Of a DNA stretch of 7,570 nucleotides, positions 2,063-5,416 are shown in pieces (the stretch's first letter is position 1; every line of letters begins with the position of its first letter). The notes under the pieces are model-generated. The model was not told where the DNA came from, did no database searches, and was given only the letters and a program-made list of their open reading frames with translations. The position numbers and the translations under genes were made by a program. Location: assembly GCA_001919995.1 (NCBI GenBank), contig MNIY01000207.1, positions 1 through 7,570 on the forward strand, given 5' to 3'. The stretch comes from Ktedonobacter sp. 13_1_20CM_4_53_11 (GTDB lineage: Bacteria > Chloroflexota > Ktedonobacteria > Ktedonobacterales > Ktedonobacteraceae).

Positions 2063-2125
2063 GTGAGAGTGAGCTGTGGAGGAAAGCACCACACATGCTA
2101 CTCCCTCCATGCTTCAACTTCGTGC

Positions 2126-2166
2126 GTCACGGAGTCCCCTCTCTTCAGAGACGGGGAGGAAGTGAC
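2126..2166 (+). repeat. Left-end hairpin of the IS-like element
   Basis: The outer arms GTCAC (2126-2130) and GTGAC (2162-2166) enclose a 9-bp stem formed by TCCCC+TCTC and GAGA+GGGGA, with loop TTCA (2144-2147) and an extrahelical C at 2152. There is no T-run on either strand, which argues against a terminator. Confidence 0.6.
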
Positions 2167-2187
2167 GCCGCCCGCAGGCGCACTCCC

Positions 2188-2216
2188 TTGACGTTTTAGG
2201 TCATTTGTGCTACACT
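2188..2216 (+). promoter_or_regulatory. Sigma-70 promoter with extended -10, reading right
   Basis: TTGACG (2188-2193), a 17-base spacer and TACACT (2211-2216), with TG one base upstream of the -10 (2208-2209), making an extended -10. This is the best promoter match in the window, yet no plus-strand protein gene follows. Initiation near 2222-2224 would fall at the start of the nested hairpin at 2221-2270. Confidence 0.6.
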
Positions 2217-2270
2217 CTTTGTGTAGGCTTAGGCACCCTGGTTCGCCAGGGAGAGACGGTTCGCCTACAC
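2210..2270 (+). promoter_or_regulatory. Mutually exclusive hairpins at the RNA 5' end
   Basis: CTACAC occurs at 2210-2215 and again inside GCCTACAC at 2263-2270, while GTGTAG at 2221-2226 can pair with either copy. If transcription starts at about 2223, only the downstream pairing is available in the RNA; transcripts from further upstream could switch between the two. Confidence 0.35.
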
Positions 2271-2516
2271 GGTACCTTTCCAACTGAACGGTCGGGTTCC
2301 CATCGAGAATGCCGCGATGGGGTAAAACGTTCTCGGTCGATCACAACGCTTCGTGCTCGGCATGCTGGGCACGAACGGGCCGCTTGTCAGACGGCCCAGA
2401 GTCGCAAGACTCGGATGTGTCGTGCGATGAAGCCAAAGCTGTACTCGCCTCTGGGGTACAGAGTTGCGGTGGAGTACAGACACAAGCCCCTGACTTCCAG
2501 TCATGGGGTCTCTGAC
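2222..2516 (+). ncRNA. Candidate structured RNA, possible TnpB-type guide RNA scaffold
   Basis: Downstream of the promoter the plus strand holds a chain of stems. GTGTAGGC/GCCTACAC (2221-2228 with 2263-2270) encloses CCCTGG-TTCG-CCAGGG (2236-2251). Then come TTCGTGC/GCACGAA (2350-2356 with 2369-2375), GGGCCG/CGGCCC (2377-2382 with 2392-2397), GAGTC with a GCAA tetraloop and GACTC (2399-2412), GTACTC/GAGTAC (2441-2446 with 2472-2477), and the right-end hairpin (2487-2508). TTCG and GNRA tetraloops are typical of real RNAs. TnpB reRNAs end at the element's right end, with the guide taken from the flank. If that model holds, the guide starts near 2517 and is antisense to the phasin-like gene. 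A 5'-guided IscB/HEARO RNA is an alternative. No transcript evidence is available. Confidence 0.42.
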
Positions 2517-2969
2517 GTCTGTTGTCCAGTGCTGCACCCATTCGGTTTGCGCATTGATGATTGCCCACCCGCTTTCCTGTAAACTGGAAAGCAGGTGCTC
2601 ATCAGCCTGGGAGCCAGCTTCGAGGAGTGGCCCGAGCTGCTGGACGAGTTGGAACCAGCCCTGCCATAGGTGTTGTTGGGCTTCTGTCCAACGCAGGAAC
2701 AGCACCTGCGCCTGTTGCACGTTCTTGCGTAGCTCTGTCGGACTTCCTGTTGTGACCTGGACGCGCCCGCTCCAGTCACGAAGCCATCTGGCCTGGGCTT
2801 CCAATGTCTCTTGCACCGTCGATTGCCAGGCCTTCACAGTTTCGCTCCAGACCATTTTGCGCGATGGTTGCTCGGTCCCCTGCAAAAGATCAAGCCAACC
2901 TACGAGCATCTTCTGCTGTGAGTCGGCCCAGCTTGTCATCAAGGTTTCTTCTGGGCTCTTTTCACTCAT
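2265..2969 (-). CDS. Phasin-like Trp/Gln-rich coiled-coil protein with replaced tail
   Basis: The open frame has 234 residues. Residues 1-150 are helix-prone, rich in Trp and Gln, and contain an internal duplication with a period of about 80. W14-(S/A)QQ-GW25 recurs as W94-AQQ-GW105 with the same 11-residue spacing, and AQxxWxxxW at 58-66 recurs at 140-148. There is no signal peptide, Cys or catalytic motif. This is the style of phasin and PhaE-like granule proteins, and the neighbouring acyl-CoA genes fit, but I do not recognise a named family. From about residue 152 the sequence becomes Pro/Arg/Ser-rich, because it is encoded by the IS-like element (2265-2516). The native protein probably ended near residue 150-155. 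The start at 2969 has AGGAG nine bases upstream. The stop falls inside the element's nested hairpin. Confidence 0.62.
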   Translation of the reverse strand: MSEKSPEETLMTSWADSQQKMLVGWLDLLQGTEQPSRKMVWSETVKAWQSTVQETLEAQARWLRDWSGRVQVTTGSPTELRKNVQQAQVLFLRWTEAQQHLWQGWFQLVQQLGPLLEAGSQADEHLLSSLQESGWAIINAQTEWVQHWTTDVRDPMTGSQGLVSVLHRNSVPQRRVQLWLHRTTHPSLATLGRLTSGPFVPSMPSTKRCDRPRTFYPIAAFSMGTRPFSWKGTV

Positions 2970-3149
2970 TGACCTGTTCTCCTTTCATCGACCGTATGCA
3001 TGAAACACAGTAGTATTTCTTCTTCGCCGGATGACGTGACGTGGGAAGAGTTGCCTCCCAACCCGAGAACGGCTCTCGCACGTACCACGAAACAGACGAA
3101 GTAGGAAGGAAGCCCTTGTCTTTCAGTCAGTACGTCGTGTGCTAGATCT

Positions 3150-3244: not shown

Positions 3245-3328
3245 AGTCGCCCAATGACGGTGTCACATGAGGCAAACCTGCGCAGTGCCTCTACCGATGG
3301 GACGAAGTAATCTATAGTTTGATATCAC
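3245..3328 (-). pseudogene. Probable N-terminal scrap of a Ser/Thr protein kinase
   Basis: The minus-strand frame from 3328 reads NYRLLRPIGRGTAQVCLM, then a TGA (3265-3263), then HRHWAT in the same frame. Bacterial Hanks-type kinases start their catalytic domain with a closely similar run: NYRL, then a hydrophobic-GxGxxxxV glycine-rich loop, then YLGEH. Here the loop looks one residue short and a stop replaces the Gly-Glu before His. Similarity fades after about 28 codons. It abuts the point where the ATPase fragment stops, so a deletion could have joined the two. The match is short and could be chance. Confidence 0.35.
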
Positions 3329-4530
3329 TGAAACGTAAAAGCTGCTGCTCCGTTGGCGATCACGTTGGAGGCCAGCTCCGCAGTGGGGACGTCCACGTGC
3401 TCCAGGACCATAAGCGCGCGACCATGGAAGACTCGCCTGCGAGCATCTCCAGCCGTTGCGTAGACCACCTCGCGGATCTTGTCGTGGCTAAAGTGATAGG
3501 AAACCCCTCTTCTTCCTTCTCCCCGAAATCTCGACTCATGCAGCAGGAGACTCTGCAGGGTTTCATCCAGGGCAGCAAGTCCCTCCTGCGGTGCAAGCTG
3601 GGCAACCTGGCAGAGCTGCTCAAAGGTGAAGTCCTGCTCCAGGACCGCCCCTGCTGCCAGCAGGGTGCGGGCAGGGGACGAAAGTCGGGCCAGGCGACGC
3701 TGGATCATCTCGCGCACCTCCGAGGGAAGCATGTTGTTCGGTGGAGTGGCTTCGAGAATCGATGGCTGCGGCTCAAATACCCAACCGCTTCCCGCGATCA
3801 AGCGGGGCACCAGGACGCCGCGTTCGAGCAACATCTGGAGTAGCGCGTTCAGATAGAACGGCTGCCCTTTCGTTTCTGCGAACAGCCACGCGGCGAAACG
3901 CTCGGGGCAGATGCCGCTTCCAGGGGTCTGAACAGGCTGCGAAGAAGGCTGATTGTAGCACCCCGATTTATCGCAGGTGTCTCCCGGGAGCGATGGGTGC
4001 ACTCCATCAGTATCCGTGAGTTCGCGAACGATCTGGCGGGTGTCTTGCGCAGAGAGGGGACCCAGGTCCAGGTGCGTCAAAGAGATGGTGCTGCTGAGGC
4101 TCGCAAGCCATTCGGACATCTCCGGCTCCATTTCCCGCGTTTCGATGCGTCTGCTCAGCAGCACCATGGCGGGCGTCTTATGCTCCCTCCAGTATCGAGC
4201 AAGATACTGGAACACGTCCAGGGTGGCGGCGTCCGCCCACTGTATGTCGTCGGCAAACAGGAGGAAAGGTGCCTGTGAAGCTAACGCTTGAGACAAGCGC
4301 GCCAGCGCTTCGAAGAGGCGGGAGGAGGCAAAGGCCCCGTTGATGGTCAGAGGGGGCAAGTCGGGGTAACGCTCGCGCAGGTCAGGCAGCATGCGGGAGA
4401 GCTCGGCCAGCCAGGGATCACCGAGCAACTGACGAAGATCATCTTCCTGTTCTAAGCGGGTGCGCAGCGCCTCGATCAGTGGCTGATAGGACAGGCGCTG
4501 TGAAGTTTGAAATGCCCTTCCTTCGAGCAC
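3325..4530 (-). pseudogene. ATPase part of a broken BTAD/STAND regulator
   Basis: This 401-codon frame begins with GTG (VLEGRAFQTSQRLSYQP) exactly where a BTAD-AAA regulator continues after its Walker A segment, so the GTG is an internal codon rather than a native start. No Shine-Dalgarno precedes it, and an in-frame TAA (4536-4534) lies just upstream. Visible parts are Walker B FLLFADD (89-95), the sensor-like LSRRIETRE, ERFAAWLFAETKGQPFYL, the winged-helix-like EVREMIQRRLARLSSPARTLL, and YHFSHDKIREVVY before the tetratricopeptide region. The frame ends at 3325 soon after that, whereas relatives carry several hundred more residues of TPR. It therefore lacks the P-loop at the front and the sensor repeats at the back, and lies in a different frame from the DNA-binding half (4439-5416). 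A non-functional remnant is most likely. Confidence 0.8.
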
Positions 4531-5416
4531 TTCTTACTTCCGCCCCTCTTCCAACAAAGGGGACGTTGAGCAACGGTCGCGCGGCCGTCGTGCACCTGCC
4601 GGCCCCGCTGTGCGCACCGCGAGGAGGAGAGGCGTTGCGCAGTACCTCTGCCAGGACGACTAATTTCCGTGAGGGTTTGGCGGAGAGCTCCGTCATCAAG
4701 GCCTCCTCGTAGGTCTCGTAGGTCTTCAAGGCCGCAATGCGGTTGCCGATCACGAACTGCAGCTGCATGAGGCGCAGGGAGATGCCCTCGTTGAGCGGGT
4801 CAAAGCAGCGCCAGCGCTCGACGGTGGCAATGGCCTGTTCGATCTCCCCCTCTGCGCTCTGTAGCTGGGAGAGCCAGTCAAACACCTGCTCGATATGCTG
4901 GTACCAGTAGCCTTGCTGCATGCCGACCCAGTTGTCGTAGTCGAGTGTCTCGCGCAAGGTAAAATCCTGGAGGAACGAGCCGCGGTACAGAGCGGCGGCA
5001 CGATCGAGTTGGGCGATCAGGGCACGGCGGACCTCTCCATGCACCGTTTCTGGTGCAGGCAGGACACGGACCAACCTCCATGCGGTCTCAAGGGCGTGCA
5101 GGTCCAGATCAATGCCTGAGGCCAGATCGAGCCCGAGCGTGTTGTTCGTGATGAGCAGGTGGGATTCGCATTCAAGTGAAGCGTCCTCTTCAAGCATATG
5201 CCGTAAGTGCAGTAAGTGAATGCGCAGCGCAGTGCGCCCATGAGCCATATCCCTCTCAGGCCAGAGCAGGCGCGTCAGCTTTTGCCGCTCATGCATACCC
5301 CCTTCAGCCGCCAGGTAGGCCAGCAGTGCGAGCACTTTGCGCTCGCAAAAGGTCAGTCGACGATTCAGGTGGTGTACTTCCGGTGGCCCGAGCAATGCAA
5401 TCTTCAAGGCACTCAT
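4439..5416 (-). CDS. BTAD-domain (SARP/AfsR-like) regulator, truncated frame
   Basis: The frame has 325 codons. Residues 1-95 form an OmpR-type winged helix as in SARPs (RKVLALLAYLAAEGG, RQKLTRLLWPE, RTALRIHLLHLRHML). Residues 103-262 are a bacterial transcriptional activation domain (DLHALETAWRL, LYRGSFLQDF, DNWVGMQQGYW, ERWRCFDPLNEGISLRLMQLQ, ALKTYETYEEAL). VPFVGRGAE at 285-293 is the linker that normally opens the AAA/STAND ATPase. After it the reading shifts to about 32 unrelated residues up to the stop at 4439, while the ATPase continues in another frame from 4530 without its Walker A. GGAGGAG at 5428-5422 fixes the start at 5416. The product has the layout of a small SARP (DNA binding plus BTAD), so it may still bind DNA even though the ATPase is lost. 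Repeats upstream suggest autoregulation or activator control. Confidence 0.8.
   Translation of the reverse strand: MSALKIALLGPPEVHHLNRRLTFCERKVLALLAYLAAEGGMHERQKLTRLLWPERDMAHGRTALRIHLLHLRHMLEEDASLECESHLLITNNTLGLDLASGIDLDLHALETAWRLVRVLPAPETVHGEVRRALIAQLDRAAALYRGSFLQDFTLRETLDYDNWVGMQQGYWYQHIEQVFDWLSQLQSAEGEIEQAIATVERWRCFDPLNEGISLRLMQLQFVIGNRIAALKTYETYEEALMTELSAKPSRKLVVLAEVLRNASPPRGAHSGAGRCTTAARPLLNVPFVGRGAEVRSARRKGISNFTAPVLSATDRGAAHPLRTGR
4528..4546 (-). other. Deletion/frameshift junction inside the regulator
   Basis: On the minus strand GAAGT (4540-4536), two A's, then GAAGT (4533-4529) mark the join between the GRGAE codons and the VLEG codons. Relatives have roughly 45 residues here, including the P-loop (family knowledge, from memory). 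The short repeat suggests loss by slippage or recombination between micro-repeats, leaving a net frame change. Confidence 0.65.

Follow-up and report, generated by a model that had tools for sequence, protein, structure and literature searches.

The window, which is the whole 7,570-nt stretch of DNA from the soil bacterium Ktedonobacter analyzed here, contains at about positions 2118-2516 what is, judged from sequence, well supported as an IS200/IS605-type element that lacks any protein gene, namely a tnpB element from which most of tnpB has been deleted. It retains its left end (LE), the tnpB promoter and start codon, scraps of tnpB, and a complete TnpB reRNA (omegaRNA) that runs to the tip of the right end (RE). 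Because the tnpB frame is destroyed while the RNA helices are retained, the arrangement of LE, promoter, deleted tnpB, reRNA, and RE points to an internal deletion of a tnpB element. It is probably a PATE, here a non-autonomous IS200/IS605 element of the tnpB type with an internal deletion, which continues to encode a stand-alone TnpB guide RNA that a TnpB could use in trans. With the nuclease gene gone and the ends, promoter, and guide RNA kept, it may thus borrow a TnpB made elsewhere. The first-pass annotation had proposed a protein-less IS200/IS605 unit with a stand-alone reRNA/omega-RNA, and this idea is borne out by blastn matches to tnpB 3′ ends in Deinococcus, by a covariance-model match (E 5e-36, a rough value), and by the similarity of LE to that of relatives. 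The features of the region are as follows.

2113..2117, plus strand: TTCAA, the probable target/TAM motif 5′ of LE (alternative, GTCAC at 2126-2130)
2118..2156, plus strand: LE, with tip and subterminal hairpin 2136-2156; blastn match to the LE of L008 (E 5e-4, computed only against loci collected in this analysis, as for all LE blastn values)
2155..2181, plus strand: GGAGGAA motif and LE-internal hairpin CGCC-GCCCGCA-GGCG (2166-2180), in the same order in L008, L043, L044, and L049
2188..2216, plus strand: promoter TTGACG-N17-TACACT with a TG-extended -10, the putative ancestral tnpB promoter; same layout in L043, L044, and L045
2221..2223, plus strand: GTG, the presumed remnant of the tnpB start codon, followed by the deletion; placed behind the promoter as in relatives
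2221..2270, plus strand: 5′ stem-loop with CCCTGG-TTCG-CCAGGG inside and a GRERRF-like tnpB scrap at 2244-2262
2270..2341, plus strand: upstream domain common to the tnpB-less copies, with hairpin 2299-2305/2315-2321; antisense TRPFSWK in P0241-P0246
2342..2516, plus strand: complete TnpB reRNA scaffold; 116.9 bits with covariance model R1, positions 1-160 of 160, E 5.3e-36 (R1 E-values are rough because the calibration was short)
2350..2375, plus strand: S0 hairpin, arms 2350-2356/2369-2375, 7/7 pairs
2377..2397, plus strand: stem 1, GGGCCG/CGGCCC (2377-2382/2392-2397), with TTGTCA in the loop, 6/6 pairs
2386..2391, plus strand: GTCAGA, pseudoknot partner of TCTGAC (2511-2516), 6/6 pairs in the window
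2399..2412, plus strand: hairpin GAGTC-GCAA-GACTC, located where the variable stem occurs; L006 and L048 carry an insertion there too
2416..2425, plus strand: 5′ strands of stem 2 (TGTGTC) and S2b (TGC), partners at 2474-2484, 9/9 pairs (6/6 and 3/3)
2439..2461, plus strand: stem 3, CTGTAC/GTACAG, 6/6 pairs in the window
2487..2516, plus strand: RE, with hairpin 2487-2508 and tip TCTGAC (2511-2516); the like elements L063 and L073 diverge directly after TGAC
2517..2532, plus strand: predicted 16-nt guide in the phasin-gene flank, by analogy with the ISDra2 reRNA as described in the accessible text of PMC8612924
2517..2969, minus strand: phasin-like gene, interrupted near its 3′ end, as judged from homologs; the insert-free allele P0121 ends WTTDVT

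The two end hairpins, read from the sequence, are CCCC-TCTC-TTCA-GAGA-c-GGGG in LE (2136-2156, bulged C2152) and CCCC-TGACT-TCC-AGTCA-t-GGGG in RE (2487-2508, bulged T2504). As the first-pass annotation had recognized, they have a common foot and a bulged pyrimidine at the same place, and their upper stems differ yet still pair. The element thus carries subterminal LE and RE hairpins without a terminal inverted repeat, no tip pair being found among the 17 inverted repeats listed for the window. The limits had been placed at 2115 and 2516; the right one is correct, while comparison with the family moves the LE tip to 2118. In two pairs of like insertions (L071/L072 and L065/L070), the common sequence starts from CTCAT or TTCAT, with the hairpin foot following after 16 and 17 nt. 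For TTCAA in the window the distance is 18 nt, and the LE blastn alignment with L044 begins at TTCAA/TTCAT. From these comparisons, TTCAA at 2113-2117 is the probable target/TAM motif. GTCAC at 2126-2130 was rejected as first choice because in relatives 16-17 nt separate the LE tip from the hairpin; it stays as an alternative. The RE tip fits that of relatives and TTCAA fits TTCAT/CTCAT, but neither way of joining the flanks restores the end of the empty alleles (DVT followed by a stop): read by eye, the phasin frame joined at TTCAA|2118 gives DLKH..., and joined after 2130 gives DVTHEVEAWRE. The latter junction, at GTCAC, does yield ...TTDVT but continues HEVEAWRE where the empty alleles stop.

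Between the ends, the site at 2188-2216 is the only sigma-70-like site on either strand of 2050-2620 (mean of 0.1 in 50 shuffles). An extended -10 promoter had been noted before; it can now be described as the retained tnpB promoter, since L043, L044, and L045 have a TTGA(C/A)A-17-TG-extended promoter in the same place, 6-7 nt upstream of the tnpB ATG. The GTG of the window starts 4 nt past the -10. The outer arms of the 5′ stem-loop (2221-2228/2263-2270) enclose the GRERRF-like scrap, which agrees at 18 of 19 nt with the tnpB of L053 (E 0.27, weak). Another scrap, WARTGRLS...DVS.DEAKA, gave E 6e-4, a weak match computed against one 321-nt stretch only. The tnpB scraps stand in their original order. 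Apart from such weak remnants, an intact tnpB in cis is absent, and Pfam gives nothing in the five ORFs of the element region, in agreement with the earlier statement that no transposase or nuclease gene lies between the end hairpins. Likewise, no Y1 transposase gene (tnpA) was found among the 11 window ORFs scanned with Pfam.

The identity of the RNA was revealed by plasmid blastn, which aligned 2414-2517 with the 3′ terminal parts of tnpB genes from Deinococcus (79% over 104 nt, E 6e-12), and further relatives were taken from IMG/VR contigs. The covariance model R1 was built from 13 relatives at tnpB 3′ ends with the window excluded; repeats or near-repeats (L008, L012, L043, L044, and L045) were left out, and three of the 13 rows (L007, L046, and L048) adjoin a truncated or interrupted tnpB. 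R1 found all five loci of the check set (L013 and L050-L053) and none of the five control loci (L001-L005). Its match in the window contains no non-standard pair, and the next best score in the window was 9.3 bits. As in TnpB reRNAs, the scaffold lies at RE, overlapping the tnpB 3′ end, and consists of stems and a pseudoknot. Altogether, R1 gave 22 matches in 16 records, 17 with a near full-length tnpB adjoining and five with a truncated or interrupted one. All three of the scanned TnpBs beside these reRNAs have a Cas12f1-like TNB domain. L043, L044, and L045 are IMG/VR contigs classed as viral that carry TnpB together with this reRNA type (Pfam was run on L043 and L045), and such contigs are possible carriers of a trans-acting TnpB. 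No phage matched 2280-2530 at E≤1, and no exact piece of the element was found in viral contigs. In 100 genomes of the phylum of G001, R1 gave a single match (25.4 bits over 66 nt), which was set aside; by DNA, the same phylum yielded 0 of 41.

We then asked how well the structure holds across the 14-row alignment of the window and the relatives. For 31 named pairs, 98.4% of the cells are paired, compared to 83.2% in shuffled alignments; 65 cells show double changes, compared to 20.7; and the covariation is 0.465, compared to 0.158. None of 500 shuffles, which do not model relatedness, reached the observed paired cells, double changes, or covariation, and sliding the structures lowered the paired cells to 29-49%. 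Misaligned columns kept the RE hairpin and two of the six pairs of the pseudoknot out of the 31-pair count. In a separate count, all six pseudoknot pairs, which join the loop of stem 1 to the final six bases of RE, form in 13 of the 14 rows, the window included. In the window, the sequences of S0, stem 1, S2b, and stem 3 occur in none of the 13 relatives, yet all of these helices pair; the apex of S0 is unlike that of every relative. The GNRA hairpin occupies the place of a variable stem in some relatives.

Folding of the region agrees with this picture in part. Of 37 segments of 200 nt folded as plus strand, 2001-2200 and 2401-2600 have the two lowest z-scores (-4.35 and -4.55; 25 shuffles each), and z is -3.3 for 2342-2484 and -3.1 for 2118-2190. 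In 2223-2341 and 2270-2340, folding is not unusual (z -0.3 and 0.0). The row of further stems reported earlier, including those with TTCG and GNRA tetraloops, is present; to it can be added the long-range stem 2416-2425/2474-2484, the stem 2439-2444/2456-2461, and the pseudoknot 2386-2391/2511-2516.

The insertion site supports mobility. The insert-free allele P0121, a kind of allele whose absence the first-pass annotation had counted against its reading, is identical to the window over 150 phasin residues and ends WTTDVT, while the window reads WTTDVRDPMTG... into the element. In a second inserted allele, P0128, seven of 150 phasin residues differ from the window, and the 83-residue antisense tail encoded by the element is unchanged. 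In a tree of 30 rows, in which most branches are weak, the two inserted alleles do not form one clade (two changes; one change in 0% of 200 bootstrap trees), and the rows nearest P0128 (P0129, P0131, P0134, and P0135) end without an insert. The same insert in two phasin backgrounds fits either spread between alleles or plain recombination. Two further phasin proteins resemble the junction. P0223 (82%) ends WTTDVRDQERRF..., with the same DVRD junction residues and a different interior, and perhaps represents a different element that lies at this site and shares the RE tip. P0122 (155 aa, contig 5835) has an identical phasin part and ends DVRDP where the window continues, which is either a cut at the contig end or another RE variant.

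A search for other copies, as proposed in the first-pass annotation, succeeded: with the antisense reading, six of seven candidates proved to be further copies (P0241-P0246, 97 to 45% identical), all known as proteins only. As far as protein sequences can tell, they show an older tnpB-less family. P0241 (97%) has another flank followed by VRDPMTGSQ, and P0242 (79%) yet another flank followed by VRYPMTGSQ. With the flank after RE as the predicted guide, the guides of P0241 and P0242 would differ from that of the window. P0243 begins inside the element, and P0244-P0246 differ too much at RE for the tip to be placed. TRPFSWK is kept in all six copies, and the reading of 2270-2323 is identical at 18/18, 17/18, 16/18, 10/18, 14/17, and 12/16 residues in P0241 to P0246, respectively. 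In antisense residues, 2270-2341 is as well kept as the reRNA part 2414-2483 in P0242-P0244 (43/54 versus 55/69) and better kept in P0245-P0246 (26/33 versus 20/44). With degenerate codons taken into account, P0242-P0246 have 1, 2, 5, 7, and 7 unpairable positions, including some in the 2299-2321 hairpin, and P0128 and P0241 have none. These positions may partly be due to misalignment, and decay is likely in some copies. S0 is pairable in P0242-P0246 despite 13 certain pair changes, a comparison of low power as slid registers are often pairable too.

As a working model, the retained promoter would give a transcript of about 300 nt that passes RE and enters the flank. Supplied in trans, a TnpB would bind the scaffold, trim the RNA, and take about 16 nt past 2516 as guide. 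The RNP would then cut alleles without the element, which contain the target motif and phasin sequence, and repair would copy the element in. A TnpA acting in trans would move the element, and each new site would supply a new guide. Use by TnpB in trans appears to be the most likely function. One may go further and suppose, with considerably less assurance, a long-lived nuclease-less family in which the selected product is the guide RNA and which spreads by RNA-guided homing in trans via the TnpB of another element or virus; the presence of one insert in two phasin backgrounds that both have insert-free close relatives would then be a trace of homing, and 2270-2341 an added functional part of the RNA.

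The alternative that deserves the most attention is that the ends of a PATE are moved in trans and the reRNA is a functionless passenger, an ancestral structure in slow decay. Five of the 22 reRNA matches adjoin a truncated or interrupted tnpB, with three scaffolds intact and one, in D. aetherius (L013), decaying, and the unpairable positions in P0242-P0246 are in line with this account. Moreover, because scaffolds are intact beside truncated tnpB in L007, L046, and L048 (177, 180, and 158 bits in R1, respectively), an intact scaffold may also reflect a loss that is recent; scored in one run, the window (116.9 bits) ranks under L046, L055, L007, and L048 (180 to 158) and over the L013 relic (91). 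However, all named pairs form in the window despite the S0, stem 1, S2b, and stem 3 sequences that no relative has, and the element-encoded tail of P0128 is unchanged. In addition, single-strand transposition, as known from IS608 and ISDra2, does not require internal helices. We regard the passenger account as a real possibility, though the less likely one.

A role of the hairpins in cis, in termination or stability of a minus-strand phasin/acyl-CoA dehydrogenase transcript, might be suggested by the position between two minus-strand genes and by the minus strand, which folds well too (z -3.6 and -5.6). It is very improbable, given that no intrinsic terminator was found in 2050-2620, that insert-free alleles exist and two copies have other flanks, and that the homologous RNA is a TnpB guide read from the plus strand. 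As to the partner nuclease, the first-pass annotation had left the choice between TnpB and IscB; the covariance model decides for TnpB. Stand-alone IscB omegaRNAs, guide RNAs without their nuclease, reportedly occur in Ktedonobacter, a related host, but these are of the IscB type and unmatched by the present element. Rfam, HEARO included, gave no match in the window at E≤1 and, in 2180-2540 at E≤10, only RF02455 (E 2.6). The scaffold also matches TnpB-linked reRNAs and ends at RE, so an IscB omegaRNA unit, to which we give almost no credence, was set aside.

The preferred reading, a PATE with a TnpB guide RNA, has partial precedents. PATEs are described as transposase-free relatives of IS605 elements in the accessible text of PMC7290912, and the element shares with them near-terminal palindromes of the IS605 type, no coding capacity, and signs of mobility (copies with other flanks, known as proteins only, and the insert-free allele). 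The PATE-like element of Halanaerobium hydrogeniformans is about 271 nt long and has, besides an LE hairpin and a complete RE, the final 58 nt of tnpB, with no tnpA; the accessible portion of the report mentions one copy and neither guide RNA nor promoter (PMC7290912). Compared to it, the present element adds a promoter, a scaffold recognized by a covariance model, further copies, and an insert-free allele. HqIRS71 of Haloquadratum, as far as its accessible description goes, is similar; it is archaeal, and the 2011 paper predates the description of reRNA (PMC3119063). In the ISDra2 reRNA/omegaRNA of D. radiodurans, according to the available parts of the reports, a scaffold derived from RE comprises stem 1, stems 2-4, and a pseudoknot (PMC8612924, PMC10097598). 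The likeness extends to the pseudoknot, which joins the stem 1 region to the bases directly before the guide, and to RE as stem 4 (PMC10097598, same limits); there, however, tnpB lies in cis, while the present element lacks it. An assignment of the reRNA to the ISDra2 type was not retained: among the 21 PDB sequences at E≤10 for the TnpB of L043 (best 2e-13), the names include neither ISDra2 nor D. radiodurans TnpB, and the entry codes that we take to be those of ISDra2 TnpB are not on that list. The TnpBs beside the present reRNA seem distant from ISDra2. No title or abstract was recognized as describing a stand-alone TnpB guide RNA in a literature search outside which most subscription papers lie. 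A guide RNA supported by covariation and kept without its own nuclease is new, with PATEs as the closest known kind. Cas12 is held to descend from TnpB-like nucleases. Should a TnpB guide RNA be kept and spread by elements that lack the nuclease, then guide and nuclease can separate within transposons, much as guide RNAs and Cas proteins did. The locus offers a natural test, with a guide, its scaffold, and both inserted and insert-free alleles in a single bacterial family.

L013, a Deinococcus aetherius plasmid, has at 2948-3096 the decayed remains of a reRNA (91 bits in R1), with no gene annotated there. In the window itself, the minus strand has readings for a MaoC-like dehydratase, an acyl-CoA dehydrogenase, the phasin-like protein, and an AAA/BTAD regulator, and the plus strand for an NB-ARC ATPase. 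The phasin-like protein has no Pfam match, and its name is our own assignment. Among 120 listed of 307 homologs, P0187 (79%, Ktedonobacteraceae bacterium) is the only one from an organism-named source. Metagenomic proteins reach 94% identity to the acyl-CoA dehydrogenase, and that of a Ktedonobacteraceae bacterium, the only organism-named source among 120 listed of 7999 matches, is 87% identical. By these two named sources, the host probably belongs to the Ktedonobacteraceae. A scan of genome contigs found no relative with the phasin-like protein and five loci, none titled Ktedonobacteria, with the acyl-CoA dehydrogenase. At 3325-5416 on the minus strand, readings of a BTAD regulator and an AAA_16 ATPase overlap in different frames, as if one large regulator gene had been frameshifted.
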